DNA of 64,000 nucleotides from an alpha proteobacterium BAL199. GTDB taxonomy: Bacteria > Pseudomonadota > Alphaproteobacteria > Thalassobaculales > Thalassobaculaceae. Numbering within the stretch: the stretch's first letter is position 1; each line of letters begins with the position of its first letter. The notes below the pieces were generated by a model. The model ran no database searches. It saw only the letters and a program-made list of their open reading frames with translations, and was not told the origin of the DNA. Location of the stretch: positions 124,001 through 188,000 of the forward strand of contig ABHC01000008.1 in assembly GCA_000171835.1 (NCBI GenBank), read 5' to 3'. This document shows, piece after piece, positions 36,306 through 51,911 of the stretch. The position numbers were made by a program, and so were the translations under genes.

Positions 36306-37205
36306 TCACGGACCGTTGCGGTGAATCCGGCCGAATCCCGAAAGGTCGTAGCCGCCAAGAACCTCGGCGCGCGTGCGAAACGCTTCGGTATCGGCGAACA
36401 CCAGCAGGCGCTGGATCGGAGGCTCGAACACATCGCGACGCCACAGTGCCAAGTCGTATCGCTCGTCGGCGATCGGCACGAAGTCGAGCCGGTGTTGCCG
36501 AGCCACTCCCTCAATCGCCAGCCCGGCGTCGGCGCGGCCCTCGCCGACCGCCAAGGCCACATCGGCCTCGCTGCGCGCCGGACTGGCCAGAAGGGTGATA
36601 GAACCGGAGGCAAGACCGGCCCGTTCGAGCAGATGGTCGAGCAACACCCGACTGCCCGCCCCCGGTTGCCGGGCCACCACCCGCCGCCCGAACAGATCCG
36701 CGACACCGGAAATCCCCAGCGGGTTGCCGGCCGGGACGACCAATCCTTGACGTCGCCGCGCCCACTCCATCAGCACGACCGGTTCATCCGGCAGAAGCCG
36801 TCCAACGTGACCGACGTTCCAGTCGCCGATGTCCGGTTCGAACAGATGAACACCGGCGCCGATCACCCGCCCGGCGGCCAGCCGTTTCAGCCCATCGAGA
36901 CTGCCGTCGAAAAACGTGGCGATCTCCGATCCGGACTCCCGCAACGCCCAGTCCAAAAGCGGATCATGGCTGCCGGCGAACACCGTCGGCCGCGGCATCA
37001 AGGGGGCGGTGTCTTCCTTGTACTCAACGCGGCGCCGGACCCAGGCCTCGACCAGATCGCGCGGAAACAGCAGTTTGCCGGTCGCCCGGCTGACCGGAAT
37101 GTCGCCGCCCGCCACCAGGTCGTAGACCTTGCGTTCCTTGATTCTGAGATAAACCGCCACCTCGCGGGTGGTCATCAGTTCGGACGGACGTCGGCCGCGA
37201 TCCAT
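36306..37205 (-). CDS. HTH regulator with molybdate-type substrate-binding domain
   Basis: A 299-residue fusion. An excisionase-type helix-turn-helix at the N-terminus (MTTREVAVYLRIKERKVYDL, then KLLFPRDLVEAWVRRR) is followed by a periplasmic-binding-protein-like domain of the PF12727 kind (TVFAGSHDPLLDWALRESGS; VVARQPGAGSRVLLDHLLER; EADVALAVGEGRADAGLAIE). Such proteins sense molybdate, tungstate or another oxyanion inside the cell. It lies at the end of the formate dehydrogenase operon, with a tungstate transporter at the other end of the island, so it probably adjusts enzyme or transporter expression to metal supply. No ribosome-binding site decides between the ATGs at 37205 and 37175. Confidence 0.8.
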   Translation of the reverse strand: MDRGRRPSELMTTREVAVYLRIKERKVYDLVAGGDIPVSRATGKLLFPRDLVEAWVRRRVEYKEDTAPLMPRPTVFAGSHDPLLDWALRESGSEIATFFDGSLDGLKRLAAGRVIGAGVHLFEPDIGDWNVGHVGRLLPDEPVVLMEWARRRQGLVVPAGNPLGISGVADLFGRRVVARQPGAGSRVLLDHLLERAGLASGSITLLASPARSEADVALAVGEGRADAGLAIEGVARQHRLDFVPIADERYDLALWRRDVFEPPIQRLLVFADTEAFRTRAEVLGGYDLSGFGRIHRNGP

Positions 37206-37228
37206 GATGACCCGATCGTCGGCGATGC

Positions 37229-37360
37229 TCAGTTGAGGCGAACCGACCCGCGATCGGCGGTGTTGGCGGTCTGAGACGAGCCGTCGAGATTATCCAGTAC
37301 GGCCCAGCTGATAGCCGCAATAGCCAGCATCGCAATGCACGCGGACACGAAGGCTTTCAT
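37229..37360 (-). CDS. Short single-helix membrane peptide of the formate dehydrogenase operon
   Basis: A 43-residue peptide: MKAFVSACIAMLAIAAISWA forms one membrane helix, followed by a short polar tail ending GSVRLN. GGGAGG lies five bases before the ATG. It sits between the WD40-cytochrome gene and the molybdate-type regulator. Peptides of this form, with a VRL-type end, occur near cytochrome and redox operons in related bacteria; a role as a small subunit or assembly factor is inference. Confidence 0.65.
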   Translation of the reverse strand: MKAFVSACIAMLAIAAISWAVLDNLDGSSQTANTADRGSVRLN

Positions 37361-37386
37361 CCGATCCTCCCTCGTCGATCCCGCCG

Positions 37387-38706
37387 TCAGCGGGTCGCAC
37401 TCTTCAAATACTCGATCAGGTCGGCCCGGTCACGAGCGTTCGTCATCTTCTGCAACGGCATCTTGGTTCCCGGAACAAAGTTCTCGGGCCCTTGCTCGAA
37501 CAACTGGTCTACAGTCTCGGCCGTCCAAACGAGGTCGATCCCAGTCAGCGCACCGGAATATGGATATCCGTCGACGGTGCCAGCGCGCCGTCCCATGAGG
37601 CCGTGAAGCGTCGGGCCCGCCCGCCGCGCCGTATCGCGGGACAGAGTATGGCAGATCCGGCATTTCCGTTCGAACTGCCGCTCGCCATTAGTCATCGGCG
37701 CCCCACCAGCGCGAGTGCGGGTCGCGACATCGGAAGGTCGCCGCAACGGGTCCAACGGCCACACCGCTACGCTCGACCCGAGCCCGCCGACCAGCAGGCT
37801 CTCATCGCGCGGTCCGAACGCCAGCGCCCAGATCGGACCCCGGGCTGCGGGGAAGTCCTGTGTGACCTGACCAAGAGCGGTGTCGACGACGGTGACAACC
37901 CCGTGCCCGTCGCCAAAGGCAATCCGTCGACCGTCGTGACTTTCGGCCAAGGCGAGGATCGGCGTGCGATCGTGCTCGAAACCGGTGCGAACCTCACCGC
38001 TGGCCAGATCAACAACCCGCATTCCGCCGTCGAGCGCCCCATAGGTCAACTGACCGGCAACCTCGTCCACCGCGATGACATTGATCCCGAAACCATGGCG
38101 CACCAGCGTCCGGACCTCCCGCCGCTCCGGCACGTTCCACAACCTGACCGTCCCGTCGTAGCCCGCCGAATAGAGCCGGGTACCATCGTCCGACAGGACC
38201 ACCGCGTTCACCGGGCCTTGGTGGCCTTCGAGCATCGCCAGCGGCGCTGGTGGATTCAGCGACCATAAGCCGACCTTGCCATCCCAACTGGCTGTCGCGG
38301 CCAGCCCGCCATCCATGGACACCGCCACCTGAAGGATCTTGCCCTGATGCCCGGTCAGGCGCGCCAGCGGTTCGCGCCGCTCACCCGAACCGCCGGTTGG
38401 CCACACCAGGACCAACCCGTCGTCTCCGACCGTGACCAAATGGCGGCCATCCGGCGTGAAGGCAACGGCGTTTGCAGCGGCATCATGTCCATACAGGATG
38501 GACTGCTCAACGCCACTCGGCCAGGACCGCACGATGACACTGTAGTCGAAGCTGGCCGTCGCAACCCGGTCACCGGCCGGGGCGACGGTGATGCCCTTCA
38601 CCGGTCCGCCGTGCCCGGTCAGATGTTCCGGCAACTCGGCCGCCCAAGCTCCAGCCGTACAGCCCAGGGCTGCCGCCGCAATCAGGCCAGCCGCCCCGAG
38701 GCGCAT
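37387..38706 (-). CDS. WD40 beta-propeller fused to class I cytochrome c
   Basis: A 439-residue periplasmic protein. A signal peptide (to about 22, ending AWA) is followed by seven WD40-type blades (about 28-320), each with a GH...DG...W-type pattern such as GHQGPVNAVVLSDDG. The C-terminal ~100 residues are a cytochrome c: haem site C349-R-I-C352-H353, GPTLHGLMGRRAG, and axial Met in VPGTKMPLQKM. It lies between the cytochrome b subunit of formate dehydrogenase and a small membrane peptide, 11 bases from the former. It could take electrons from formate oxidation to periplasmic acceptors or act as an assembly platform. The fusion itself is unusual. Confidence 0.85.
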   Translation of the reverse strand: MRLGAAGLIAAAALGCTAGAWAAELPEHLTGHGGPVKGITVAPAGDRVATASFDYSVIVRSWPSGVEQSILYGHDAAANAVAFTPDGRHLVTVGDDGLVLVWPTGGSGERREPLARLTGHQGKILQVAVSMDGGLAATASWDGKVGLWSLNPPAPLAMLEGHQGPVNAVVLSDDGTRLYSAGYDGTVRLWNVPERREVRTLVRHGFGINVIAVDEVAGQLTYGALDGGMRVVDLASGEVRTGFEHDRTPILALAESHDGRRIAFGDGHGVVTVVDTALGQVTQDFPAARGPIWALAFGPRDESLLVGGLGSSVAVWPLDPLRRPSDVATRTRAGGAPMTNGERQFERKCRICHTLSRDTARRAGPTLHGLMGRRAGTVDGYPYSGALTGIDLVWTAETVDQLFEQGPENFVPGTKMPLQKMTNARDRADLIEYLKSATR

Positions 38707-38717
38707 CGCCCTGCCAC

Positions 38718-39791
38718 CTACTCCGCAGCGCTGTGACGGCGGGCTGCCTCGCCTTCTTCGACTTCCTCAGCCCACAGGGAGTGGTGCTCTCGCGCCCAGT
38801 TCACATCGACCTGCCCGGTTCCCATGGCGTCGAAGGCGCCCTCCATTCCGAGCGAGCCGATGTAGATGTGGGCGATGATGACCGCGATCAGGAAAACCGC
38901 CATGATGGTGTGCCAGAGCTGGCCGAGCTGCATTTCCTGCATGGCCGTCAGGCTGGTCGGCAGGTCGAACCCGACCAGGTTCAGGACAGCAAATGTCTTG
39001 GCGAACAGCGGCAGTTCGAACGGGAACATCAGCGAGATGCCCGACATGCTGATCGACAGCCCACCCAGCATCACCAGCCAGAACAGGATCTTCTGACCGG
39101 CATTGAACTTGCGCGCCGGCGGGTGCGCCGAGCCGATCATCCCGCCGCCCTTCGCGAGCCAGACGAGATCGCTCTTGTGCGGCAGGTTGTGTGCAACCCA
39201 CAGCACGAATGCCAGTACCAGGCCGATCATGAACGCGAAGGCGAGATAGTTGTGGGCATACTTGCCGAACAGCGTCAGCGCCCCGAACGCATCCGGTCCA
39301 ATCACCGGCTTCAGGACGTAACGCCCATAGAGAATGTTCAACCCGGTGAGACCGAGAATCACGAAGGAGCCGGCCATCAGCCAATGAGCGAACCGCTCGA
39401 CCGCCTTGAAACGCTCGATCGTCACGCCCGACGGTCCGCCGTGAATCCGGATACGGCCGCGGATCGCAAAGAACGCGGCGACGGCAATCACCGCCCCGAG
39501 CAGCGCCCAGGCGCCGTAGGTGGAAACCGGTCCGTTGCGGACCGATCGCCAATTATCGCCCTCGGACTGGATCAGCACGCCCGACTGGTTGTTAGGGATC
39601 GAGACCTGACCCTGCGTGCCTTGGCGGATCTGGCGCCAGAAGTCGGCGTCGGAACTGGTGCCCAGTGTCTCGCCCGGAACCTTGCCATCGGTTTGCGCGA
39701 TGGCCGGGGTATGCATGACGGCGACCGATGCGGTCACCAGCACGGCTAAAAGTGCAAGTACCGTCGCAATGCGTCGAGCGATCATGGCCAT
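38718..39791 (-). CDS. fdoI: Formate dehydrogenase cytochrome b (gamma) subunit
   Basis: A 357-residue membrane protein. An N-terminal signal-like helix (about 5-33), a periplasmic segment and a helix (YGAWALLGAVIAVAAFFAIR) precede the FdoI-type core of four helices. Haem ligand histidines are expected in ERFAHWLMAGS, YAHNYLAFAF, WVAHNLPHKS and LWHTIMAVF/IIAHIYIG. It anchors the periplasmic alpha-beta dimer and passes electrons to quinone. It is longer at the N-terminus than E. coli FdoI. GGAGG precedes the ATG at 39791. Confidence 0.9.
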   Translation of the reverse strand: MAMIARRIATVLALLAVLVTASVAVMHTPAIAQTDGKVPGETLGTSSDADFWRQIRQGTQGQVSIPNNQSGVLIQSEGDNWRSVRNGPVSTYGAWALLGAVIAVAAFFAIRGRIRIHGGPSGVTIERFKAVERFAHWLMAGSFVILGLTGLNILYGRYVLKPVIGPDAFGALTLFGKYAHNYLAFAFMIGLVLAFVLWVAHNLPHKSDLVWLAKGGGMIGSAHPPARKFNAGQKILFWLVMLGGLSISMSGISLMFPFELPLFAKTFAVLNLVGFDLPTSLTAMQEMQLGQLWHTIMAVFLIAVIIAHIYIGSLGMEGAFDAMGTGQVDVNWAREHHSLWAEEVEEGEAARRHSAAE

Positions 39792-39841
39792 CCCGCCTCC
39801 GTTGCGCCAGGCGCTATCCGCACCCGAGGCGATCGTCGTTG

Positions 39842-40039
39842 TCAGTAGTAGCTTTGGTTTCGTGCACGCTGCCGCAGGGCGTCGAGCGTATCCCTGGACA
39901 ACGCCGTATCCGGATTGCCCTGATAGGTCCCTTTCGCATAGCTCAGGGGACGTTCCTGTTCATGCTCGCGGCATCCGGCCAACGTTGCCAGCGCGACCAG
40001 ACCAACAACCATTGCGGTTTTGCCGTGCTTCGCCTTCAT
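39842..40039 (-). CDS. Small lipoprotein of the formate dehydrogenase operon
   Basis: A 65-residue protein with a lipobox (LATLAGC, Cys near residue 22) after a helix, then a polar tail (SYAKGTYQGNPDTALSRDTL) ending RARNQSYY. It is probably anchored in the outer leaflet of a membrane. It sits between the beta and gamma subunit genes, 137 bases from the beta gene, so it belongs to the complex or its assembly. The ATG at 40039 is chosen over a TTG seven codons upstream. No characterised homologue comes to mind. Confidence 0.65.
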   Translation of the reverse strand: MKAKHGKTAMVVGLVALATLAGCREHEQERPLSYAKGTYQGNPDTALSRDTLDALRQRARNQSYY

Positions 40040-40176
40040 CGTAACCGTCCCATCCGACAAGCGAACCGACCCCGCCGCAAGAGGTCATCCCACGGCGGCA
40101 GGGTCGTCCGATGTGCAACCAGCGTGATGGACAGGGGGCGCATCCTCCAACGGGACGACACGCCCCCCGGTTTCGA

Positions 40177-40770
40177 TCAGGAGCCCTTCAGCCCGTAGGC
40201 CGTGCCCCATCCCCAAGCGCCCGATCCGAAGCCACGGGCAACCACCCGCTCGCGGAAGATCGACGACACCATGTCGCCGTCACCGGCGAGCAGGGCTTTG
40301 GTCGAGCACATCTCCGCGCACAGTGGAAGTTTGCCTTCTGCCAAACGGTTGCGGCCGTACTTCTGGAACTCAGCCGAGGAGTTGTCCACTTCCGGGCCAC
40401 CGGCGCAGAACGTGCACTTGTCCATCTTGCCGCGCGAGCCGTAGTTGCCCGCCTGCGGGTACTGCGGAGCCCCGAACGGGCAGGCGTAGAAGCAGTAACC
40501 GCAGCCAATGCAGAGGTCCTTGGAGTGCAGGACCACGCCTTCGTTGGACTCGTAGAAGCAGTCCACTGGGCACACAGCCATGCACGGCGCGTCGGAGCAG
40601 TGCATGCAGGCGACCGAGATCGACCGCTCGCCGGGCTTGCCGTCACTAATCGTGACGACCCGACGCCGGTTGACCCCCCAGGGAACCTCGTGCTCGTTCT
40701 TACAGGCGGTGACGCAAGCGTTGCATTCGATGCAGCGCTCGGCATCACACAGGAACTTCATGCGTGCCAT
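40177..40770 (-). CDS. fdoH: Formate dehydrogenase iron-sulphur (beta) subunit
   Basis: A 197-residue ferredoxin-type subunit with four cysteine clusters: CIECNACVTACKNEH, CMHCSDAPCMAVCPVDCF, CIGCGYCFYACPFGAP and CTFCAGG...CAEMCSTKAL, enough for four [4Fe-4S] centres. It lacks the long membrane-anchor helix of E. coli FdoH, which would leave transfer to the gamma subunit by direct contact. It lies 12 bases after the alpha gene. Confidence 0.93.
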   Translation of the reverse strand: MARMKFLCDAERCIECNACVTACKNEHEVPWGVNRRRVVTISDGKPGERSISVACMHCSDAPCMAVCPVDCFYESNEGVVLHSKDLCIGCGYCFYACPFGAPQYPQAGNYGSRGKMDKCTFCAGGPEVDNSSAEFQKYGRNRLAEGKLPLCAEMCSTKALLAGDGDMVSSIFRERVVARGFGSGAWGWGTAYGLKGS

Positions 40771-40782
40771 ATCGCGTCTCCC

Positions 40783-43653
40783 TTACGCTCGTTCGATGCG
40801 GCAGAGGGTGGCTTTCGTCTCCTGCATCTGCGTAACGGCGTCGTAGCCGTAAGTCTGCGCAGTGTTGGAGGACTCGCCGAGTACGTACGGATCGGCTCCC
40901 TGCGGATACTTGCTCCGCAGGTCCTTTCCTTCCAGATGCCCACCGAAGTGGAACGGCATGAACGCCACGCCGCCGGCAACCCGCTCGGTCACCATCGCCG
41001 CGACCTTCACCTTGGCCCCTTCCGGTCCGTGCACCCAGACCATCTCACCGTCCCGAACGCCGAGATTGTTGGCGTCGCGCGGATTGATCTCGACGAACAT
41101 TTCCTGCTGGAGTTCGGCGAGCCAGGGATTCGATCGGCTTTCATCACCGCCACCCTCGTACTCGACCAACCGACCAGAGGTCAGGACCGTCGGGAAATCC
41201 TTCGCGAAGTCCTTGTCCTGGATCGACTTGTACAGCACCGGCAGGCGCATAAACTTCCGATCGTCATAGGTCGGATAGTCCGCCACCAAATCGCGCCGTG
41301 GCGTGTACAGCGGCTCACGATGGGTCGGCACCGGATCCGGGAACGTCCAGACCACAGCGCGGGCCCGGGCGTTACCGTACGGAGCGCAACCATGCTTGAT
41401 GGCAACCCGCTGGATGCCGCCCGACAGGTCGACCTTCCAGTTGGCTTTCTCGCCACCGACTTCGGCAATGGCCTTGCGCTCGTCGTCGGTCAGGTCGACA
41501 TCCCAGCCGAGCTTCTGAAGCATGGCCATCGTGAACTCGGGATAGCCATCCTCGATCTCGGAGCCGACCGGCCAGCTGCCGTCGGACAGCAGGTTGTCGC
41601 CGTTCCGCTCCACGCCAAACCGGGCGCGGAAGCCCATGCCACCATCGGCCACCGACCGAGAGGTGTTGTACAGCACAGGCGATCCCGGATGCTTCATCTC
41701 CGGCGTTCCCCAGCACGGCCAGGGCAGTCCATAGTAGTCGCCATCGGCCGGACCGCCGTTCGCGCGCAGCGTCGTGCGGTCGAACGTCGCCTGGTTGGCC
41801 ATGTGCAACCGCAGCCGTTCCGGCGACTGCCCGGTGTAGCCGACTGTCCACATGCCGCGGTTGAACTCCCGCGTCAGGTCCTCGATCAAAGGCTCGTCGC
41901 CATTGACCTTGATGTTGCGGAACATCCGGTCTTCAAACCCGAACTTCTTCGCGAACAGATACGCGATGTTGTGATCAGGCTTGGACTCGAAGAGCGGTGC
42001 AAACACCTTCTCGCGCCACTGCAGTGACCGGTTCGACGCCGTGACCGAGCCGTAGGTCTCGAACTGGGTCGAGGCCGGCAGCAGGTAGGCACCGTCCTTG
42101 CGGTCGTGCAGAACCGCCGACACCGTTGGGTAAGGATCGATCACGACCAGGAGATCAAGCTTCTCCATGGCCGCCTTCATATCCTTCAGGCGGGTCTGCG
42201 AGTTCGGCGCGTGGCCCCAGAACACCATGGCCCGGATGTTGTCGGGCTGATCGATGTTCTCCTTGGCTTCGAGCACACCGTCGAACCAGCGCGAAACCGG
42301 AATGCCGTCGGCGTTCATCAGTTCCTTGGACTTGAAGCGGCTGACCAGCCACTCGTAATCCTCGCCCCAGACCCGCGCCCAGTGCTTCCATGCGCCGTCC
42401 GCCAAGCCGTAATAGCCCGGCAAGGTGTTCTGCAGCACACCGAGGTCGGTAGCGCCCTGCACGTTGTCGTGGCCGCGGAAGATGTTGGTGCCGCCGCCTT
42501 CCTTGCCCATATTGCCGAGGGCCAGTTGCAACACGCAGTAAGCACGGGTGTTGTTGCTGCCGTTGGAGTGCTGAGTCCCACCCATGCACCACACGATACT
42601 GCCCGGTCGGTTGTTGGCCATCAGGCGGGCAACCCGCTTCATCTGCGAGCCCGGCACGCCGGTGACCCGTTCGGTCTCCTCAGGCGTCCACTTCTTCACC
42701 TCGTTGCGGATCTGGTCCATGCCCCAGACGCGCTGACGGATGAACTCCTTGTCTTCCCAGCCGTTCTCGAAGACGTGCCAGAGAATGCCCCAGATCACGG
42801 CAACGTCGGTGCCGGGCCGGAACCGCATATACTCGTCGGCGTGGGCCGCCGTCCGGGTAAACCGCGGATCGCAGACGATCAGCGGCGCGTTGTTTTGCTC
42901 TTTCGCTTTCAAGAGATGCAGCAGCGAGACTGGATGCGCCTCGGCGGGATTACCGCCAATAATGAGGATCGCCTTGCTGTTGTGCATGTCGTTGTAGGAG
43001 TTCGTCATCGCGCCGTAGCCCCAGGTATTGGCTACGCCGGCGACGGTCGTCGAGTGGCAGATACGCGCCTGGTGATCGACGTTGTTGGAACCCCAGTAGG
43101 CCGCGAACTTACGAACCAGATAGGACTGCTCGTTGCTGTGCTTGGCCGAGCCCAGCCAGTACACCGAGTCGGGACCCGACTTCTCGCGGATCTCGAGCAT
43201 CTTGTCGCCGATCTCGTTGATCGCGGTTTCCCAGGAGACCCGCTCCCACTTTCCGCCGACCATCTTCATCGGATACTTCAAGCGGCGCTCGCCGTGCGCG
43301 TGCTCGCGCACCGACGCGCCCTTGGCGCAGTGGGCACCCAGGTTGAACGGGCTGTCCCAACCGGGCTCCTGCCCGATCCACACGCCGTTCTGAACCTCGG
43401 CCATGACCGTGCAACCGACGGAGCAATGCGTACAGACCGATTTGATGACCTCGACCGCACCCTTGCCTGCCGCCGCTGCCTCGGCCTTGCGGACCGAACC
43501 GCCAGAGAACGCCGTCGCGGCGGCAAGGCCGCCTACGGCAAGACCGGAACTCCGGAGGAAACTCCGGCGGTCATAGGTCTTCTCTGCGGTCTTGGCAGCG
43601 AAAGTCGACAGACGAGGGCGTGACGCAACCTCGCTAGCCTTCTTCCTAAGCAT
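40783..43653 (-). CDS. fdoG: Formate dehydrogenase catalytic (alpha) subunit, cysteine type
   Basis: A 956-residue molybdopterin oxidoreductase. The TAT signal is at R29-R30 (YDRRSFLRSSG). [4Fe-4S] ligands are C74, C77, C81 and C109 (CTHCSVGC; GAHCAKGAS). The active site C199-H200 lies in DHQARICHSTTVAG, where E. coli FdnG/FdoG have selenocysteine, so no UGA recoding is needed. The metal, Mo or W, is bound by two pterin cofactors; the tungstate transporter in the same island makes W possible. GGAGGG precedes the ATG at 43653. Periplasmic, formate to CO2 with electrons to beta and gamma subunits. Confidence 0.95.
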   Translation of the reverse strand: MLRKKASEVASRPRLSTFAAKTAEKTYDRRSFLRSSGLAVGGLAAATAFSGGSVRKAEAAAAGKGAVEVIKSVCTHCSVGCTVMAEVQNGVWIGQEPGWDSPFNLGAHCAKGASVREHAHGERRLKYPMKMVGGKWERVSWETAINEIGDKMLEIREKSGPDSVYWLGSAKHSNEQSYLVRKFAAYWGSNNVDHQARICHSTTVAGVANTWGYGAMTNSYNDMHNSKAILIIGGNPAEAHPVSLLHLLKAKEQNNAPLIVCDPRFTRTAAHADEYMRFRPGTDVAVIWGILWHVFENGWEDKEFIRQRVWGMDQIRNEVKKWTPEETERVTGVPGSQMKRVARLMANNRPGSIVWCMGGTQHSNGSNNTRAYCVLQLALGNMGKEGGGTNIFRGHDNVQGATDLGVLQNTLPGYYGLADGAWKHWARVWGEDYEWLVSRFKSKELMNADGIPVSRWFDGVLEAKENIDQPDNIRAMVFWGHAPNSQTRLKDMKAAMEKLDLLVVIDPYPTVSAVLHDRKDGAYLLPASTQFETYGSVTASNRSLQWREKVFAPLFESKPDHNIAYLFAKKFGFEDRMFRNIKVNGDEPLIEDLTREFNRGMWTVGYTGQSPERLRLHMANQATFDRTTLRANGGPADGDYYGLPWPCWGTPEMKHPGSPVLYNTSRSVADGGMGFRARFGVERNGDNLLSDGSWPVGSEIEDGYPEFTMAMLQKLGWDVDLTDDERKAIAEVGGEKANWKVDLSGGIQRVAIKHGCAPYGNARARAVVWTFPDPVPTHREPLYTPRRDLVADYPTYDDRKFMRLPVLYKSIQDKDFAKDFPTVLTSGRLVEYEGGGDESRSNPWLAELQQEMFVEINPRDANNLGVRDGEMVWVHGPEGAKVKVAAMVTERVAGGVAFMPFHFGGHLEGKDLRSKYPQGADPYVLGESSNTAQTYGYDAVTQMQETKATLCRIERA

Positions 43654-44704: not shown

Positions 44705-45388
44705 TCAGTCCTGGTCGCGAGCCCCCGGCGCAGCGAATACCATGTGACGGCGGCGAACGACCGCCTCTTCGACCGGGCGTTCCACCGGTTGCTCTTGCTC
44801 GGCATCCAGCTCAGGGGACCCGTCGTCGGTGATTGCCGACGCGTCAGCATCGTTCTCATTCGCCAGTGCGGCATCGTCGGCATCCATCGGGCTGTCTTCC
44901 GACTCCTCGGACTCGCCCAGGAGCTTCGCCTTCTCCAGCGCGTCCTGCAGGTAGGCCGCCGCGCCCCGACCGACTTGGTAGGTGGTCTTGAGGTTCGGTA
45001 TCACCGTGGCAGCGTCGGTGTAGTCGTCATTGTACTCCACCAAGCCATCGAGATTTGCCAGCATCGGGTGCAGTTTCCACATGCGCCGCAACGCCAGATT
45101 CCTCAATCGCGTCGGGATGCCGGAACGCATGAACGCCGACACATCGTCCGCGACGGTCAGGCTGCTAGGATCCGGCAGTTCATAACGAGCCAGCAGTTCT
45201 TCGTCGGAGAGTTCCGCCTCGTCGACCGCATCCTCGGTCTCCGCCACCGTCGGCACGACTCTGGCGGCTTCCGGCGGGAGGGAATCGTCCGGTTCTTCCG
45301 GGAGCTGCTCCTTGGGTGTGAGCTTGCGGCGCGACCAGCGGGCCAGGAACCCGCCGTCGTCTCCACCGTCGCGGGTCGGCCGGCTCAT
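44705..45388 (-). CDS. DUF3306 protein of the formate dehydrogenase island
   Basis: A 227-residue acidic protein: FLARWSRRKL near the N-terminus (the DUF3306 hallmark), then LLARYELPDPSSLTVADDVS, FMRSGIPTRLRNLALRRMWK and a middle LHPMLANLDGLVEYNDDYTD. The C-terminal third is a low-complexity Asp/Glu region. Its start overlaps the DUF3305 gene's stop by four bases. Occurs in formate dehydrogenase clusters; biochemical role unknown. Confidence 0.82.
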   Translation of the reverse strand: MSRPTRDGGDDGGFLARWSRRKLTPKEQLPEEPDDSLPPEAARVVPTVAETEDAVDEAELSDEELLARYELPDPSSLTVADDVSAFMRSGIPTRLRNLALRRMWKLHPMLANLDGLVEYNDDYTDAATVIPNLKTTYQVGRGAAAYLQDALEKAKLLGESEESEDSPMDADDAALANENDADASAITDDGSPELDAEQEQPVERPVEEAVVRRRHMVFAAPGARDQD

Positions 45389-45921
45389 CGTGGCCTCCTG
45401 ACCGTCGGAGCTCGGAACACGTCGGCGGTCTGGCGAATGCGCGGGTCGCCCTTGCCATCCTCATTCAGGTCGACGTCAACCCGGTCACGCCGACGCTTCA
45501 CGAACTCGGTATCGTGGTGGTGGGTGGCGACGAATGTTTCCAGCCACTCGAGCAGCACCGGCGGCAAGATCAGCCGCTCGATGATCTCCTCGGCGCTGTC
45601 CAGACGGTCCTGCACTTCGTAGGGCGACACCGTCACGAAGCTCGGCTCGAAATCCCACTCATCGGTCCCGGGTTCGCCTTCACGCAATCCGACATAGATC
45701 GCCGGTGCCCCGGTCTCCAGATTCGCGACATAGGCTTCCGTATCGGAGCGATAGACATGCATCGGCAGCGTGGCCGCGTGATATTGGATGCGGTCGGGCT
45801 CCTCGGTCAGAAGCCGCCAGCGAACGCCATTGTCAGCCCATGGCAGCACCCCGACGGGCTCCCAGGCCCATTCCTGCCAGCGATGATTGATCCGGCGCTT
45901 CTGGACGATGATGCCGACCAT
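45385..45921 (-). CDS. DUF3305 protein of the formate dehydrogenase island
   Basis: A 178-residue protein: VGIIVQKRRINHRWQEWAWE at the N-terminus, AATLPMHVYRSDTEAYVANL, PAIYVGLRE and FVTVSPYEVQDRLDSAEEII, matching DUF3305. The ATG at 45921 has AGGAG six bases upstream. It is read divergently from the large ferredoxin-like gene and cotranslated with DUF3306. Co-occurrence with formate dehydrogenase suggests a shared maturation or regulatory task. Confidence 0.82.
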   Translation of the reverse strand: MVGIIVQKRRINHRWQEWAWEPVGVLPWADNGVRWRLLTEEPDRIQYHAATLPMHVYRSDTEAYVANLETGAPAIYVGLREGEPGTDEWDFEPSFVTVSPYEVQDRLDSAEEIIERLILPPVLLEWLETFVATHHHDTEFVKRRRDRVDVDLNEDGKGDPRIRQTADVFRAPTVRRPR

Positions 45922-46018
45922 CATCGTCTCCTGCCTGTCCATCCCTGTCGGTCGTTCCTGCAACAGCCTGCTCCCGTCTTGGACCATGTCCCGCAAGCGC
46001 GCTCCTATGCAACGAGTC

Positions 46019-46036: not shown

Positions 46037-46089
46037 ATCGCAAGGGACCGAAGAACCCAACAGGCGCCCCGGCGAGGAGACCATACGGC

Positions 46090-48120
46090 ATGCAGCGAGG
46101 CGATCGCACTGTCCTGATCTGCGACTGCGGCGGGACCATGGACATCGACGGTGCCAAGCTGTCGAAAGCGTGCGGGGGCACCGGCGGAACCGTGTTCACA
46201 GCATTGTGTCGACGCGAAATCAACCGGTTCACCGACGCGCTCGGCAATACCGGTTCGGTCGATGTCGCCTGCACTCAGGAAGCGCCGGTGTTCTCCGAGG
46301 TCGCCGAGGAGCATGACGCCGGCGACCGGGTGTCGTTCTTCAACATCCGAGAAGCCGCCGGCTGGTCCGACGAAGGCGCCTCCGCCCTGCCGAAGATGGC
46401 GGCACTGATCGCGGAAGCCACCGTACCAGTTCCCGCGTCGCGCAGCCTTACCCTGACGTCGGAGGGCACGTGTCTGGTCTACGGTCGCGGCCAGGTGGCG
46501 CTCGACGCGGCAGTCAAATTGTCGGACGGCCTGTCGGTTACCTGCATGCTGATCGACGCCGACGATACGATTCCGCCTGCAGTCGTCGATTTCCCGATCG
46601 TCGCCGGCCGAATCCGACAGGCAACCGGCCGCTTCGGAGCGTTCGCGGTGACAATCGATCGGTTCGCCGAGCGAAACCCGTCAGCCCGTACCGGTCTGGG
46701 CTTCGGGCGCCCGGCCGACGGCGCTGAGTCCGAGTGCGACGTCATCGTCGACCTGACCGGCGACCCGACGCTGTTCCCGGCACCGGAAAAGCGCGACGGC
46801 TACCTGCGGGCCGATCCGCGCGACCCCGCCGCGGTGATGTCGGTCGTGATGGAAGCATCGACCCTGGTCGGCGAGTTCGAGAAACCGATCTACGTCAACG
46901 TCAACGACAGCCTGTGCGCTCATTCACGCAACCGCAAGACCGGCTGCACCCGCTGCCTCGACCTGTGTCCCGCCAGCGCAATCGCCCCGGCCGGCGATGT
47001 GGTATCGGTCGACCCGGCACTGTGCGGTGGCTGCGGCTTGTGTGCCGGCACCTGTCCGACCAGCGCGATCACATACGCTTACCCAGACGTGCAGTCGGTG
47101 CATCAGCGGATCATGGCGCTGGCCAGCGCATACCGGGGAGCCGGCGGCAAGGCACCACGTATCTTAATTCATGACGACAAGACAGGATTTCAACTTATTG
47201 AACTATCAGCGCGATATGGCCGAGGTCTTCCAGCGGATGTGATTCCGCTGTCTATTAACGAGGTCGGCCAAGTCGGCCACGATATCCTGTTGAGCGCCCT
47301 TGCCCAGGGCTTCCAGGAGATCGTCCTGCTGACCGATCCGCGTCGACCCGACGACTACGCCGGCCTGGACGCGCAGATCGGCGTGGTCGAGGCATTGTTG
47401 ACCGGCCTGGGCGATGTCGGGGGACGCGTACGCGTTCTGGACACCCCCGATCCCGACGCGTTGTCGGATGCGCTGTACGGGCACCGACCCGCCCAGACGC
47501 TGCCAGTGGCGACATTCGTGCCGCTGGGTCGCAAGAAGGCCATCACCCGACTGGCAGTCAAAGGCCTTGCCGCCGCCCTCGGGGCGCCGGACGAACCGCT
47601 GCCCCTACCCATTGGCGCGCCGTATGGCCGCGTCGTTGTCGATACCGAGGGCTGCACGCTGTGCCTGGCCTGCGTCAGCGCCTGCCCGGCCAGCGCGCTG
47701 CAGGACAACCCCGACAAGCCGCAGTTGCTGTTCCAGGAAGACGCCTGTGTGCAGTGTGGGCTGTGCGCCGCCACCTGTCCCGAGAAGGTCATCACGCTGG
47801 AGCCGCGCTACGCGCTCGCCGACTCCGCACTCTCGGCGCAGTTGGTGTTCGAGGACGAACCTTACCCCTGCGTGTCGTGCGGCAAGCCGTTCGGCACCAA
47901 GCGCTCGATCGAGGCCATCGTCACCCGCCTGTCCGGCAAGCACTGGATGTTCGCGACCGACGACCGCACCAAACTCATCCGGATGTGCGAGGACTGCCGG
48001 GTCACCACGCAGTTCCACAGCAAGGACAACCCGTTCGCCGGCCCACCCCGCCGGCTGCCGCGCACCACTGCCGACTACGAGCAGGCACGCGCCGAGGGCC
48101 GAGAGTTGGAGGACGACTGA
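46090..48120 (+). CDS. Large multi-[4Fe-4S] ferredoxin-domain protein of the formate dehydrogenase island
   Basis: A 676-residue soluble protein. The N-terminal half (about 1-280) has no recognised fold but starts TVLICDCGGTMDID. Clusters follow: CTRCLDLCPASAIAPAG and CGGCGLCAGTCPTSAI (about 297-335), then CTLCLACVSACPASAL and CVQCGLCAATCPEKVI (about 520-575), plus CVSCGKPFG and MCEDCRVTT near the C-terminus. At least four [4Fe-4S] centres are likely. GAGGAGA lies nine bases before the ATG. Unlike the rest of the island it is on the forward strand. It may pass electrons in maturation or link formate oxidation to a cytoplasmic partner. Confidence 0.85.
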   Translation: MQRGDRTVLICDCGGTMDIDGAKLSKACGGTGGTVFTALCRREINRFTDALGNTGSVDVACTQEAPVFSEVAEEHDAGDRVSFFNIREAAGWSDEGASALPKMAALIAEATVPVPASRSLTLTSEGTCLVYGRGQVALDAAVKLSDGLSVTCMLIDADDTIPPAVVDFPIVAGRIRQATGRFGAFAVTIDRFAERNPSARTGLGFGRPADGAESECDVIVDLTGDPTLFPAPEKRDGYLRADPRDPAAVMSVVMEASTLVGEFEKPIYVNVNDSLCAHSRNRKTGCTRCLDLCPASAIAPAGDVVSVDPALCGGCGLCAGTCPTSAITYAYPDVQSVHQRIMALASAYRGAGGKAPRILIHDDKTGFQLIELSARYGRGLPADVIPLSINEVGQVGHDILLSALAQGFQEIVLLTDPRRPDDYAGLDAQIGVVEALLTGLGDVGGRVRVLDTPDPDALSDALYGHRPAQTLPVATFVPLGRKKAITRLAVKGLAAALGAPDEPLPLPIGAPYGRVVVDTEGCTLCLACVSACPASALQDNPDKPQLLFQEDACVQCGLCAATCPEKVITLEPRYALADSALSAQLVFEDEPYPCVSCGKPFGTKRSIEAIVTRLSGKHWMFATDDRTKLIRMCEDCRVTTQFHSKDNPFAGPPRRLPRTTADYEQARAEGRELEDD

Positions 48121-48123
48121 CGG

Positions 48124-48411
48124 CTATTTCGGAGTTGTCGCCCGGCACAACGCCTCGGCGCGGGACTTGAAGAGAGCCGCCTGGTCGGATTTGAAGATCC
48201 CGTCGGTCACGCCCTTGTCGATGGTCGCGTGGTGTTCGGAAATGCATCGCGCCAGCGGGTCGTCCTTGACCGCCCCCGGCCCCGCCAGCCAAGCGGACAG
48301 ATCGTCGCGATGGATGACGGCCAGCGCACCGACCGCCGCCAGCATCACCGCAACCGCTGCCAACCGGGCAGCGGGCCGATCCAGCGGATGAGATGAATCG
48401 TTCTCATTCAT
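48124..48411 (-). CDS. Small membrane-anchored protein of the formate dehydrogenase island
   Basis: A 95-residue protein with one helix (LAAVAVMLAAVGALAVI, about 17-33) and a periplasmic part that has two Cys (ARCISEHHATIDKGV; EALCRATTPK), possibly a disulphide. It lies four bases after the DUF6352-like gene and converges with the ferredoxin-like gene. No named family recognised; conserved placement suggests a link to the dehydrogenase. Confidence 0.65.
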   Translation of the reverse strand: MNENDSSHPLDRPAARLAAVAVMLAAVGALAVIHRDDLSAWLAGPGAVKDDPLARCISEHHATIDKGVTDGIFKSDQAALFKSRAEALCRATTPK

Positions 48412-48415
48412 GAGA

Positions 48416-49420
48416 TTAATTTGATATCTTAAGCGGCAGATTTGAAACGATATTCTGTGGCTTCATTCGGATGACACCATCGGGGTCCATGGCAAGGCCG
48501 AGGTGTATCGACCGTCCCGCCACGTTGTCCAGCACCGCCGCCGTGTCGTCGATCTCCATGCTGAACAGCGCCACGATCTGCCGCAAGCGTCCCTCGTCCA
48601 GGGTTTGACCCTCGTACAGCGCGTTCAGGATCGCGTTCGCGTCCCGGTCCAACCCGATGTGCCAGACCCACCGCTCGTCATCGATCCGGCGCATCGGCGT
48701 CACCCGACAGGTGATTCCAACCAGATGAGCGACCCAGGCCTCCAGCGCCCGCGCCAGTCCATCGAGGCCCGGTTGCGGATAGGCGATGTCGATGGCGGTG
48801 TCGAAGCCGTCTGAGCGCGCCCAATACTCGTCGCTCGCCTCCTCGCCCAGTACGTCGATGTCGACCATCGCCGGCCGGCCGTCCCCAGCCTGCAGCGCAC
48901 GGCCGGACTGAGCGTGCAGGTCGACTACGGCGAGGTCGGCCACCATGACGCGCTCGTCGCCCAGGGTGACCCGCTGCGGGCGAAAGAACAGTTCACCAGC
49001 CCGCACCCGGAACGGGTCGCGCGCGCCGTCAAGGGCCGAACGCAGAATGACGTGGGTCAAATGGTCGACGAACATCGGCGGAAAATCGATTCCGCCCTCG
49101 CGCACCACGTGGAGATAAGCTGCCTCAATCGATGGAAAGCGCGTCAGAAACGCCCGGAAGCGCAGGATGGCGCGGTAGTTGTCAGCCGCGTCGGGATCGG
49201 CCAGCGCCTGCAGTTCGGCCTCCGGGACCGGACGCATCGGATCGTCCAGCAGCGCGGCATGCAGTGCCAGTTCGCGGTCGCAGGACTCATCGACCGGCGC
49301 CACCTCGGGTCGACGCCAATACGCTGCGACGAAGGCAGGGGTCGGGGTCAGCCGGCCGGACTCATCCCGGTCGAGAAGACGAAAGCCCGAACTGAGCCAA
49401 AAATCGTGTGCGACCGTCAT
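48416..49420 (-). CDS. DUF6352-like protein of the formate dehydrogenase island
   Basis: A 334-residue cytoplasmic protein: DFWLSSGFRLLDRDESGRLT at the N-terminus, then AYWRRPEVAPVDESC, ADNYRAILRFRAFLTRFPSI and FFRPQRVTLGDERVMVADL. This matches what I know of DUF6352 proteins, which accompany formate dehydrogenase genes. It overlaps the DUF6505-like gene by four bases (ATGA at 49417-49420). Function unknown. Confidence 0.75.
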   Translation of the reverse strand: MTVAHDFWLSSGFRLLDRDESGRLTPTPAFVAAYWRRPEVAPVDESCDRELALHAALLDDPMRPVPEAELQALADPDAADNYRAILRFRAFLTRFPSIEAAYLHVVREGGIDFPPMFVDHLTHVILRSALDGARDPFRVRAGELFFRPQRVTLGDERVMVADLAVVDLHAQSGRALQAGDGRPAMVDIDVLGEEASDEYWARSDGFDTAIDIAYPQPGLDGLARALEAWVAHLVGITCRVTPMRRIDDERWVWHIGLDRDANAILNALYEGQTLDEGRLRQIVALFSMEIDDTAAVLDNVAGRSIHLGLAMDPDGVIRMKPQNIVSNLPLKISN

Positions 49421-49908
49421 CGGAAGGTTCCATCCTCGTCGAACATCGACCAGATCGATTGCGCCGCGCCAGGATCGGCTGCCGCCACCCGGCGGAAGGC
49501 CTCGCGAACACCATCCGGCCCGAGTTCGCGGGTCACGGTCAAGGTCGTCCCGGCCTCGTAGGGCTCGCAGAGTTCGATCGCGAAACCGATCTCCTGCGCC
49601 GCCACCGGGCGGGCGGCCTCGCGGCTCGGTGCACCGTAACGTTCCACGAAGTGGTCGGCCAAGGCATCGACGAGCCGGGCATGAACCGTATCGTCGGCAG
49701 TGGCGACCGCCACGAAAGTGGTGCGCCCGAACCCCGCCAACCCGAGGAACCCATTGGCAAAAGCCTGGCGGCGCTTGCCGATCAACGTTTCGGTCGTGTC
49801 GTTGGCGAATTCGAAGCCACCCGGAACCGCCCACTCGCCGTCTTCGGCGGCGGTTTCGAACACCCGGCCGTCGGAATCGTCGAACCGTACCGCCCGCAGC
49901 AGCTTCAC
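49417..49908 (-). CDS. DUF6505-like protein of the formate dehydrogenase island
   Basis: A 163-residue protein: MKLLRAVRFDDSDGRVFETA, GEWAVPGGFEFAN, RRQAFANGFLGLAGFGRTTF and ALADHFVERYGAPS, consistent with DUF6505. It overlaps both neighbours by four bases, so it is made in step with the biotin-ligase-like and DUF6352-like proteins. Function unknown. Confidence 0.75.
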   Translation of the reverse strand: MKLLRAVRFDDSDGRVFETAAEDGEWAVPGGFEFANDTTETLIGKRRQAFANGFLGLAGFGRTTFVAVATADDTVHARLVDALADHFVERYGAPSREAARPVAAQEIGFAIELCEPYEAGTTLTVTRELGPDGVREAFRRVAAADPGAAQSIWSMFDEDGTFR

Positions 49909-50627
49909 AGCGTCAAGTCCTCGAGGTGGTTCGCCAGGGAATCGGCCCGCGTGCCCACCGCATCCTTGAGCAACGCCCGGCCGTCCTCATCCAGACCGAC
50001 AAAGACGGCGTCGCCGACCATCATTCCCGGTTCCGCCCGGGCTCGCCAGGCATCATGGATCGGACGGAATCCGTCTTCCTCCCACCGGCGCAGCCAGGTC
50101 AGGAAATGCCGGGACATCGACTCCAGCAAACGCGACACCGCGATCGGGCCGCTACCTTCTTCATACAGCGTCGTCTCACCAGGACGGTCGCCTGGTTCCG
50201 CCGATCCATCGTCTTCCAGGCGAAGGTCGAGGCCAACGACCAGCCAATCCGGTTCGAGCGCCGCATCGCGGTGCGACGCCGCCAACCGAACCCTCCCGGC
50301 GGCGGCCCCGTTGACCAGGATCGTGGTCGGCCAGCGGTACTCGACCGCTACCTCCGGCGGCGCCAGCGCCCCGATTGAATCGCCAATCGCGACCATCAAG
50401 GTGTGCGCCATCTGCACCGCACGGTCGAGCGGCACCTCCGGCGCCAGCGCAATCGCGAAACGCAGCCGGTCGCCGGGTTCGGCGTAGGCCACAAGCCCCG
50501 GATCACCACCGTCGACCATCGAACGGGCCGCGGTCACCGTTGGATCGTCACCCTGCCCGACCTCCTGCCCGGACAGCAGCGGCGGAAACACCGGCGGCCA
50601 TCCTGCCTCCACCCATTCGTCGGTCAT
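49905..50627 (-). CDS. Biotin/lipoate-ligase-like protein with C-terminal DUF4444
   Basis: A 240-residue protein of the biotin protein ligase fold: DRLRFAIALAPEVPLDRAVQ, AIGDSIGALAPPEVAVEYRW and the segment RWPTTILVNGAAAGRVRLA, which aligns with the KWPND...GI motif of BirA. The lysine that holds the acyl-adenylate is Arg here, and the GRGR-x-G adenylation loop is not evident, so normal ligase activity is doubtful. The C-terminal ~50 residues (EPGMMVGDAVFVGLDEDGR) resemble DUF4444, a beta-barrel appendage. It is coupled to Mrp and DUF6505, so it may carry or modify something in dehydrogenase assembly. Confidence 0.72.
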   Translation of the reverse strand: MTDEWVEAGWPPVFPPLLSGQEVGQGDDPTVTAARSMVDGGDPGLVAYAEPGDRLRFAIALAPEVPLDRAVQMAHTLMVAIGDSIGALAPPEVAVEYRWPTTILVNGAAAGRVRLAASHRDAALEPDWLVVGLDLRLEDDGSAEPGDRPGETTLYEEGSGPIAVSRLLESMSRHFLTWLRRWEEDGFRPIHDAWRARAEPGMMVGDAVFVGLDEDGRALLKDAVGTRADSLANHLEDLTL

Positions 50628-51709
50628 GCTGCCGCTTCCTCAACCGCCCGGATCACGGCGCGCGCGGCGTCGCGGAACGCCTGCGCATGGATGCTGTTCG
50701 GACGGGCGATCACGATCGGCGTACCGGAGTCGCCGCTCTCCCGGACCGCGACGTCCAGCGGGATTGCCCCAAGCAGCGGCACGCCGTGGCGCTGCGCCTC
50801 CTTGCCGGCACCGCCATGACCGAAGATGTGGTCGACCCGTCCGCAATCCGGGCACTGGTAGAAGCTCATGTTCTCGATCACGCCGAGGATCGGCACCTGG
50901 GCCCGCTGCAGCATGGCGATCGCCTTGCGGGCGTCGAGCAGTGCCACGTCCTGAGGCGTGCACACCACGACCACGCCATCCACCGAGGTCTGCTGAATCA
51001 TGGTGATCGGCACGTCCCCGGTGCCCGGCGGCAGGTCGATCACCAGATAGTCGAGCTTGCCCCAGGCCACCTTGGTCAACATCTGGGTCAGCGCCGACTG
51101 CACCATCGGGCCGCGCCAGGCAATCGGCGTGTCCTCGGCTGCCAGCAGGCCCATTGAGATCAGCTTGACGTTGTAGTTCTCCAGTGGCGCCACGGTGTCT
51201 TGGGATAGCGGCTTCGGGCGACCGGTCACCCCGAGCATGCGGGGTTGCGACGGGCCGTACACATCGGCATCGAGCAGGCCGACCGACCGGCCCTCCAACG
51301 CCAGCGACACCGCCAGATTGGCCGCGGTGGTGGACTTCCCGACCCCGCCCTTGCCGCTGGCCACCGCAATCACATAGTGGAACTCGGCAAGCGGTTCGGA
51401 CGAAACCGCAACCGGTGGCTCCATCATCGGGTTGCTGCTCCGCCGCGCGGCTCCAGCGGCGGAGTGTGCCGTCAGCAGACCGGTGGCGCTGGTCACCCCC
51501 GGCAACGCCTGAACCACCGCTTCCGCCCGCCGGCACAGCGGTTCCAGCGCCGCGCCGCGATGCGCATCGACCAGCAGGGTGAACCCGACATTGCTGCCGC
51601 GGATCGTCACGCTCTCGACCATGCCGGCACTGACGAGATCGACGCCACGCGACGGATCAACGACGGTCCGCAACGCCGTCAGAACGGCGTCCTCGGTGAT
51701 CTCAGCCAT
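50624..51709 (-). CDS. mrp: Mrp/ApbC-type P-loop ATPase, iron-sulphur carrier
   Basis: A 361-residue protein. An N-terminal MIP18-like domain (about 1-80; ALRTVVDPSRGVDLVSAGMV) is followed by the Mrp ATPase: deviant Walker A VASGKGGVGKSTTAANLA, LDADVYGPSQPRML, DLPPGTGDVPIT and the Cys pair YQCPDCGRVDHIFG that holds a bridging [4Fe-4S] cluster. Mrp proteins deliver Fe-S clusters to client enzymes. Inside this island it probably serves the many clusters of formate dehydrogenase and the 676-residue protein, though it may be the cell's only copy. It overlaps the next genes on both sides. Confidence 0.9.
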   Translation of the reverse strand: MAEITEDAVLTALRTVVDPSRGVDLVSAGMVESVTIRGSNVGFTLLVDAHRGAALEPLCRRAEAVVQALPGVTSATGLLTAHSAAGAARRSSNPMMEPPVAVSSEPLAEFHYVIAVASGKGGVGKSTTAANLAVSLALEGRSVGLLDADVYGPSQPRMLGVTGRPKPLSQDTVAPLENYNVKLISMGLLAAEDTPIAWRGPMVQSALTQMLTKVAWGKLDYLVIDLPPGTGDVPITMIQQTSVDGVVVVCTPQDVALLDARKAIAMLQRAQVPILGVIENMSFYQCPDCGRVDHIFGHGGAGKEAQRHGVPLLGAIPLDVAVRESGDSGTPIVIARPNSIHAQAFRDAARAVIRAVEEAAA

Positions 51710-51911
51710 GCGGGCTGGGCAGGACGATCTCAGCTTCGACGACATGCTGGAGATCGGTGCCCTCAAGAGTGATGACGGCGCGCGCCTTGCGGGTAGCCGG
51801 CGCACCGCCGGTGTTCGACGCCCGCGCTGCCCGCTCCAACTCCTGATGACCGGTCACACCGACCTGTTTCAGGAACTTGCGCACCGATCCTTCGAATGCG
51901 TCATCGCTCAT
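51702..51911 (-). CDS. DUF6494-like small protein, first gene of the accessory operon
   Basis: A 69-residue protein: SDDAFEGSVRKFLKQVGVTG, HQELERAARAS and RKARAVITLEGTDLQHVVEA, as in DUF6494. GGGAGG precedes the ATG at 51911. The frame continues upstream through the promoter but that part is not coding. It overlaps the Mrp gene by eight bases and begins the six-gene run down to 48124. Function unknown. Confidence 0.75.
   Translation of the reverse strand: MSDDAFEGSVRKFLKQVGVTGHQELERAARASNTGGAPATRKARAVITLEGTDLQHVVEAEIVLPSPHG

Follow-up and report, generated by a model that had tools for sequence, protein, structure and literature searches.

Metal-dependent formate dehydrogenases (FDHs) are wanted for CO2 reduction but are difficult to produce in other hosts. 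We asked what the many poorly understood genes beside such an enzyme do in an FDH island at positions 36306-51911 of a 64,000-nt stretch of contig ABHC01000008.1 from the alpha proteobacterium BAL199 (the window, to which all unqualified coordinates refer). A sequence-only reading had proposed that the companions of the enzyme act together as one system, which is too strong: they fall instead into a core (DUF3305, DUF3306 and a polyferredoxin related to HdrA), a largely alphaproteobacterial shell (DUF6352, DUF6505 and a biotin-ligase-like protein) and a number of loosely attached genes. The role best supported, and well supported by association, is cytoplasmic maturation before export by the twin-arginine translocation (Tat) pathway, with the core probably acting around the hand-over and reduction of the bis-molybdopterin guanine dinucleotide (bis-MGD) cofactor.

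The island enzyme is probably an exported FDH3

The genes of the island lie on the minus strand unless stated otherwise. The iron-sulfur beta subunit FdhB (40177-40770) passed the curated cut-off of the FDH3_beta model NF038355 (339.5 bits; cut-off 240), as did the cytochrome b gamma subunit FdhC (38718-39791) that of TIGR01583 (151.5 bits; cut-off 115.85). The alpha subunit FdhA (40783-43653, read from an ATG start in a frame open to 43788) matched Molybdopterin domains and scored 488 bits with the general Fdh-alpha equivalog TIGR01591, below its cut-off of 666. Six further FDH3 alphas, some of them truncated, also fell below this cut-off, which suggests that the model suits the cytoplasmic type better, and it was not used as an FDH3 criterion. 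By eye, FdhA begins with a twin-arginine signal. A small FDH-region TAT-target protein (43727-43918; TIGR02811, 48.3 bits, marginally below the cut-off of 48.45) and a TorD/DmsD-type chaperone (43969-44589; PF02613) are encoded next to it. The island probably encodes an FDH3-type, Tat-exported, quinone-linked FDH, the metal of which may be either tungsten or molybdenum, together with a cytoplasmic assembly line of its own. Methylobacterium-type FDH3 (NF038355) operons are comparable: in loci L275 and L285, FdhABC are accompanied by the same core and shell, and Methylobacterium locus L305, which is cut short, also has core and shell. Unlike the genes, a function for the companions is absent from the papers found on these operons.

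Three core families follow FDH3 across the class

To observe how the companions are distributed, we compared 172 genomes of the class, in 24 of which the FDH3 beta subunit was present above its cut-off and in 148 of which it was not. Matches were counted at an E-value of 1e-3 by default, at 1e-40 for the polyferredoxin, 1e-20 for FdhD and 1e-30 for the TupA-like protein. DUF3305 and DUF3306 occurred in the same 27 genomes and the polyferredoxin likewise in 27; each was present in all 24 FDH3-positive genomes and in only 3 of the 148 negative ones (Fisher p 2e-26 each, a value that, like all Fisher p-values here, ignores phylogeny). This distribution supports the maturation role that the sequence-only reading had suggested. 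DUF6352 (23 genomes in all) was found in 20 of the FDH3-positive and 3 of the negative genomes. DUF6505, counted above its cut-off in 16 genomes, was found in 14 and 2, respectively; genome G091 was dropped at 20.5 bits, and G119, one of the 16, has an in-frame stop in the gene. For the biotin-ligase family we drew a line of our own and counted only matches above 100 bits (19 genomes; 17 of 24 and 2 of 148), which dropped five FDH3-positive genomes at 66-96 bits; at E<=0.001 the family model PF16917 hit 111 genomes, with ordinary BirA among the weaker matches. DUF6494 (31 genomes) was present in 18 of the FDH3-positive and 13 of the negative genomes and FdhD (86 genomes) in 22 and 64, while the TupA-like protein was found in 23 of the 24 FDH3-positive genomes. 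Since most FdhD-bearing genomes lack the core, FdhD does not explain the core pattern. The sequence-only reading would have been refuted by companions that are widespread in the absence of the enzyme; this was not the case for DUF3305, DUF3306, the polyferredoxin, DUF6352, DUF6505 and the strong biotin-ligase-like form, while DUF6494 fared less well.

The few core genes seen without an FDH3 beta subunit belonged to genomes G071, G125 and G127 (DUF3305 and DUF3306) and to G053, G071 and G125 (polyferredoxin). In G071 and G127, FdhA is cut at a contig edge with the core adjoining, which leaves G125 and G053 (see Discussion) as the genuine exceptions.

The core recurs beside FDH and cofactor genes

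We then considered the best 80 of 429 stretches that passed the polyferredoxin search (the named loci), a set that leans to near relatives and contains the polyferredoxin by construction. Both flanks are nearly full in 50 of the 80; counts refer to the stretch covered, and each neighbour cluster was given its name by eye or after a single representative. Alignments were made from subsets together with the window protein (A1, 18 of 20; A2, 20 of 21; A3, 26 of 26; and A4, 14 of 16 locus sequences; A5, 28 of 30; A6, 65 of 68; A7-A9, 22 of 80). The organisms include Azospirillum, Bradyrhizobium, Methylobacterium, Roseovarius, Ruegeria and Stappia. DUF3305 was found in 69 loci, DUF3306 in 68, the biotin-ligase-like protein in 59, FdhA in 57, DUF6505, FdhC and TorD in 55 each, TAT in 54 and FdhB in 53, followed by a WD40-cytochrome c protein (43), DUF6494 (37), Mrp (36), DUF6352 (30) and the regulator at the end of the island (23). 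Among the 50 loci with full flanks, DUF3305 and DUF3306 were each present in 45, FdhA in 43 and TorD in 41. Profiles of recurrent neighbours added TupA-like (22 of the 80), MoaA (13), FdhD, MobA and MoeA (10 each) and MobB (8). On Sinorhizobium sp. M103 plasmid pM103b, a helix-turn-helix regulator, an ABC transporter that we take for Tup-like, molybdopterin genes, core, shell, fdh3B and FdhD stand together, in a gene table that is incomplete and does not list FdhA. On Alloyangia pacifica plas3, the block goes on with another FDH alpha, its subunit-E-type partner, TusA, glp and mobB.

The association extends beyond the class. DUF3305 was detected in 35 of 259 genomes sampled across the phylum, of which 18 are not members of the class; 15 of these 18 were fetched, G229, G298 and G408 being left out as their genera were already covered, so that DUF3305 is present in the set by construction. 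The polyferredoxin, TorD, TAT and FdhA accompany it in all 15 loci, DUF3306 in 14 and a clear FdhD in 10, followed by Mrp (5), TupA-like (4), DUF6505 and the biotin-ligase-like protein (2 each); DUF6352 and DUF6494 were found in none of the 15. In L362 and L363, the runs FdhCBA-TAT-TorD-DUF3306-DUF3305, polyferredoxin-Mrp-biotin-ligase-like-DUF6505 and MoeA-MobB-MobA-FdhD-TupACB are contiguous. As this grouping recurs, in varying order, in most of the 80 named loci and in the 15 outside the class, it appears to be more than chance.

Loci L364-L366, in which the open frame of the polyferredoxin is shorter (554-561 aa), resemble SO4503-SO4510 of Shewanella oneidensis, where FdhD, two conserved hypothetical proteins, an Fe-S protein, FdhT, FdhA and FdhB follow one another in the same order, to the extent that the genes are named in the tables of two papers (PMC2535785, PMC5826389); we infer that SO4504 and SO4505 are DUF3305 and DUF3306. 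According to the expression data of PMC2535785, SO4504, SO4505, SO4506, SO4509 and, less evenly, SO4503 were lowered in a regulator mutant, and SO4719 likewise. In those of PMC5826389, SO_4506, SO_4507, SO_4509 and SO_4510 change in one direction together with SO_4719, there named TupA.

DUF3305 and DUF3306 suggest a link to the dinucleotide cofactor

The genes for DUF3306 (44705-45388; PF11748) and DUF3305 (45385-45942; PF11749) overlap by 4 nt. DUF3305 matched the second, DUF3305 half of the MobA-DUF3305 family model NF011058, the first half of which is matched by the MobA of genome G125, where the genes form an fdhD-mobA-DUF3305-DUF3306 run divergent from the polyferredoxin. Members of the DUF3305 family share one invariant tryptophan and a conserved K-R-x-R stretch, and the predicted structural model had a predicted local distance difference test score (pLDDT) of 90, lower in the tail. 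Neither the DUF3305 nor the DUF3306 model matched any of 14 control genomes, E. coli included.

The island families had been called uncharacterised, which is right for function and not for neighbourhood: DUF3305 and DUF3306 were noted with dmsD-fdhGHI operons in a survey of 2015 (PMC4464133). These operons share the DUF3305/DUF3306 pair with the island, and the legend names fdh tat and a 4Fe-4S gene; the survey differs from the present reading in that it calls the pair putative membrane proteins and, as far as its text on these operons goes, names no maturation role and no link to tungstate or HdrA. The neighbourhood has therefore been known since 2015, while the function itself is uncharacterised: searches by DUF names or Pfam/TIGR accessions among open-licence PMC papers found no paper on what the two families do.

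The polyferredoxin resembles an HdrA that has lost its flavin site

The third core gene encodes a polyferredoxin of 676 aa on the plus strand (46090-48120). Its residues 9-156 matched the N-domain of HdrA weakly (E 2.1e-4 over the whole sequence, 0.008 for the best single stretch), and residues 283-345 matched the C-terminal ferredoxin of HdrA (E 2.6e-18), collinear with the N-domain match. The polyferredoxin is therefore like the HdrA of heterodisulfide reductase in its N-terminal domain and C-terminal ferredoxin, and unlike it in that the flavin motif is lost (GxGxxG was intact in 1 of 81 sequences) and in its added dicluster ferredoxin and CX2C-CX2C tail. Of the 24 cysteines, 23 were invariant in all 81 sequences and C553 was kept in 80. 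Four of them are N-terminal (11, 13, 40 and 61), those at 276-322 and those at 522-563 each make up a dicluster ferredoxin set, and the remainder are the CX2C pairs 594/597 and 633/636, a pattern that could accommodate about five [4Fe-4S] clusters and one mononuclear CX2C-CX2C metal site. Matches of the C-terminal CX2C tail were limited to zinc fingers of other kinds, probably via the short motif. An FlpD/MvhD relationship of the middle region yielded one weak match among 19 members (E 0.014), and none of the matches in the PDB was convincing (best E 0.059). By eye, the start contains no signal peptide and no membrane segment is visible; since it shows no signal peptide, the protein is probably cytoplasmic.

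A diverged polyferredoxin also lies beside a TorD-like gene and a Phs/Arr-like molybdoenzyme pair in locus L375 (genome G053, locus positions 9200-15384), and proteins of this type may serve other molybdoenzymes.

Shell and looser companions

DUF6352 (48416-49420; PF19879; predicted model with a pLDDT of 92.8), DUF6505 (49417-49908; PF20115) and the biotin/lipoate-ligase-like protein (49905-50627; PF16917) look like mostly alphaproteobacterial add-ons. A biotin protein ligase is recognised by a GRGR biotin loop and a catalytic lysine, together with KWPND. The biotin-ligase-like protein of the window matched PF16917 with 237.7 bits, the solved structure 3BFM of unknown function with an E-value of 3.2e-83 and BirA with one of about 4e-7. 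Among 60 such proteins, GRGR occurred inside the protein in none (all matches precede the start), KWPND in one, and the ligase lysine stood at the aligned position, taken from the comparison with 3BFM and BirA, in three. An active biotin ligase is thus ruled out, as the GRGR loop and the lysine are missing. In the adjoining Mrp/ApbC-type Fe-S carrier ATPase (50624-51709; family match and motifs), both the Walker A motif GKGGVGKS and the CxxC motif were retained in all 36 sequences, that of the window included.

DUF6494 (51702-51911; PF20104) is ruled out as an FDH3-specific family, as 13 of the 31 genomes that carry it have no FDH3 beta subunit. All 13 of these have FdhD and 11 have a TupA-like protein. 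Eight DUF6494 loci from genomes without FDH3 beta had no neighbour common to all, and a few unidentified neighbour clusters recurred in 3 to 5 of the DUF6494 loci. In locus L204 (genome G007, locus positions 1911-3810), where FDH3 beta was undetected in the genome, DUF6352 directly follows a TupA-like gene and may thus be connected with tungstate. Seven loci (L246, L248, L262, L271, L277, L299 and L306) encode, near the island, a recurrent protein of about 100 aa, with a DUF3144 match in one representative.

A tungstate-type transporter adjoins the island

Beyond the stretch that the sequence-only reading had covered, and overlooked by it, genes for a TupBCA-like permease, ATPase and binding protein lie together at 51982-54378 on the plus strand, next to and divergent from DUF6494. 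They encode a TupB-like ABC permease (51982-52806; PF00528; start uncertain), a TupC-like ABC ATPase (52790-53560; family match) and a TupA-like tungstate-binding protein (53557-54378), the last of which scored 222.6 bits with NF041772, whose cut-off of 400 was passed by none of the 172 class genomes. FdhD of this genome is encoded away from the island (G000:C67, 250.5 bits).

For MeFDH1 of Methylorubrum extorquens, moeA1, mobB and fdhD are reported to be essential, and a moeA1-mobB-tupBCA cluster was described (2026, PMC13197769). This pathway resembles the island in that TupBCA, MoeA, MobB, MobA and FdhD are tied to a tungsten FDH; it differs in that MeFDH1 is a two-subunit enzyme, and the main text of that paper contains no 'DUF' and 'ferredoxin' once. 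When MeFDH1 was produced in E. coli, maturation of the alpha subunit was the bottleneck and activity came to 4-14 U/mg, compared with 80-100 in the native organism (2026, PMC13396061), although iron was nearly complete in the best preparation and some active, tungsten- and iron-loaded enzyme was obtained (PMC13396061). Maturation of E. coli FDH-N/O by FdhD and FdhE (PMC10609526) is comparable in that a periplasmic FDH needs dedicated factors, FdhE having CX2C metal sites. The island differs from it in FdhE, which was not among the island proteins scanned; no genome-wide search for FdhE was made in this or the other genomes.

Gene order and remaining features of the window

The companion families were confirmed by family matches at the places where the sequence-only reading had put them. 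The tight overlaps that it had described hold for two runs, DUF6494-Mrp-biotin-ligase-like-DUF6505-DUF6352 (8, 4, 4 and 4 nt) and DUF3305-DUF3306; elsewhere the island has gaps of 3-181 nt. A single operon for the whole island is ruled out by the polyferredoxin on the opposite strand, the gene of which is separated by 147 nt from the divergent start of DUF3305 and by 3 nt from the convergent end of a small protein that by eye has a single membrane segment (48124-48411; relatives in 10 of the 80 named loci). The polyferredoxin is opposite to DUF3305 in 68 of the 69 named loci that have both; outside the class, 13 of the 15 loci have it on the strand of DUF3305, where it reads with the operon. 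A lipoprotein and two small membrane proteins had also been claimed; we found the lipoprotein-like protein (39842-40039, 65 aa; relatives in 8 of the 80 loci) and the membrane protein just named, and did not identify a second one.

At the other end of the island lie the WD40 repeat protein with a C-terminal c-type cytochrome domain (37387-38706; family match) and the regulator (36306-37205), which matches HTH_17 and PF12727 with a helix-turn-helix and a periplasmic-binding-protein (PBP)-like domain. Together with the TupBCA-like transporter, we count these two genes as members of the neighbourhood. The regulator resembles the C-terminal part of PRK14498, a molybdopterin biosynthesis protein, and is a candidate oxyanion- or cofactor-responsive regulator; in Sinorhizobium sp. 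M103, too, a helix-turn-helix regulator adjoins a Tup-like transporter. Directly downstream of it, at 32500-36184, are a two-component-like pair (by eye) and a Do/DegP-type protease, DegP being present in 6 of the 80 named loci. Farther away, the stretch at 23754-25966 is locally AT-rich (GC 0.529 in 24001-26000) and looks acquired; it contains a frame that by eye resembles a transposase and one in which GC is very low at third positions. At 19175-23537 there are cupredoxin- and multicopper-oxidase-like frames by eye that overlap at about 21769-21979, perhaps through a frameshift. A tRNA-Ser (GGA) called by ARAGORN at 51490-51581, inside the mrp frame, is probably false, as it has no Rfam support; at gathering thresholds, Rfam found no RNA family, tRNA included, across the window.

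Discussion

The observations are probably best explained by an assembly line. TupBCA would import tungstate, possibly molybdate, perhaps under control of the helix-turn-helix/PBP-like regulator. As for other FDHs in the papers cited above, the tungsten or molybdenum bis-MGD cofactor would be made by MoeA, MobB and MobA and sulfurated by FdhD, the genes of which adjoin the island in some relatives. DUF3305 and DUF3306 may hand the dinucleotide cofactor over between MobA/FdhD and apo-FdhA, a step suggested by the MobA-DUF3305 fusion family and by the one fdhD-mobA-DUF3305-DUF3306 run. The polyferredoxin, probably a cytoplasmic HdrA derivative, could provide electrons of low potential where the insertion of cofactor or clusters requires a reduction, and Mrp, going by its family, would load Fe-S clusters. 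By analogy with its relatives, TorD would guard the Tat signal until FdhAB is complete, with the TAT peptide presumably co-exported; DUF6352, DUF6505 and the biotin-ligase-like protein might perhaps form an assembly scaffold. In its most specific form, this reading makes DUF3305, DUF3306 and the HdrA-related, flavin-less polyferredoxin an undescribed reductive cofactor-insertion machine for tungsten (or molybdenum) bis-MGD FDHs, an alternative to FdhE that serves periplasmic FDH3 and perhaps helps cytoplasmic MeFDH1-type enzymes; we put this form forward as a tentative possibility, less likely than not and more doubtful than the assembly line in general.

Several observations weigh against the assembly-line reading. 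The TupA-like protein is also present in 32 of the FDH3-negative genomes, and FdhD was undetected in the FDH3-positive genomes G044 and G122. Genome G125 has the core, FdhD and MobA without FDH3, together with a two-subunit NAD-type FDH (NuoF-like and an Fdh-alpha of 767 bits), and in G053 the diverged polyferredoxin beside TorD-like and Phs/Arr-like genes is accompanied by an NAD-type FDH alpha elsewhere. The stretch covered contains no DUF3305 in 11 of the 80 named loci, and on an Azospirillum lipoferum 4B plasmid no FDH gene is listed in the 14 kb around DUF3305-DUF3306. Other cluster motifs of the polyferredoxin are matched better by FwdF-type polyferredoxins (E 2.6e-24) than by HdrA, so the HdrA link depends on the weak N-domain match and on collinearity. 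The predicted structures point to no clear fold: the models of DUF3305 and DUF6352 matched no solved structure at a Foldseek E-value of 0.001 or less, which does not make either fold new, and their best VIA matches had Z-scores of 2.8 (rmsd, or root-mean-square deviation, 3.5; 50 aligned) and 3.6 (rmsd 3.2; 56 aligned), respectively. Nor are DUF3305 and DUF3306 strictly needed for MeFDH1, because E. coli, which has no match to their models, makes some active enzyme. Finally, the reading draws on association and homology, that is, on presence, order, co-occurrence, sequence relationship and motif loss, from which each biochemical step is inferred.

Could the polyferredoxin and its partners instead be working electron carriers, passing formate electrons on to a cytoplasmic acceptor as HdrA-type proteins do? 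The four ferredoxin cluster motifs, the four N-terminal cysteines, the similarity to HdrA and the fact that these islands also encode beta and gamma subunits would fit such a route. However, FdhA, by eye with a twin-arginine signal, works outside, while the polyferredoxin has no visible signal peptide or membrane segment, and its flavin motif is intact in 1 of 81 sequences. Moreover, of the 11 named loci that lack DUF3305, at least 5 have the polyferredoxin apart from FdhA and near MoaA, MobA, FdhD or Tup-like genes. We therefore consider electron carriage unlikely, and the electron-transfer role for the periplasmic enzyme put forward by the sequence-only reading found no support beyond the presence of clusters in a probably cytoplasmic protein. 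It is likewise improbable, in our estimation, that the core is part of tungsten or bis-MGD handling in general and serves FDH3 no more, or even less, than a cytoplasmic two-subunit enzyme of the MeFDH1 type. The gene content of G125, the block on Alloyangia pacifica plas3 that unites both FDHs with TusA, glp and mobB, and the enrichment of TupA-like proteins in FDH3-positive genomes speak for it, yet most named loci and the 15 from outside the class have the core joined to the TorD, TAT and FdhA genes of FDH3, and E. coli makes some active MeFDH1 (PMC13396061) without DUF3305 or DUF3306 matches. Because of that last result, we rated both this explanation and the insertion machine slightly lower. 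The wide variation of DUF6494, the lipoprotein, the small membrane protein, DegP and the regulator among loci would suit a still simpler account, in which much of the island is an ordinary neighbourhood held by inheritance and only FdhABC, TorD and TAT matter for formate oxidation; this seems very unlikely, as the core is kept across classes with varying order, strand and neighbours and is ill explained by one inherited block.

Together, these data reduce a dozen poorly understood genes to three core candidates in maturation, which their neighbourhoods connect with tungstate uptake and with the synthesis of bis-MGD, and indicate which companions are optional or lack catalytic motifs. If the insertion-machine reading is true, the poor activity of MeFDH1 made in E. 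coli and the loss of its alpha subunit could partly come from the missing core, though some active enzyme forms in E. coli without DUF3305 and DUF3306, and the alpha-subunit bottleneck described in that host (PMC13396061) makes a direct co-expression test possible. What was a gene list thereby becomes a testable assembly line.

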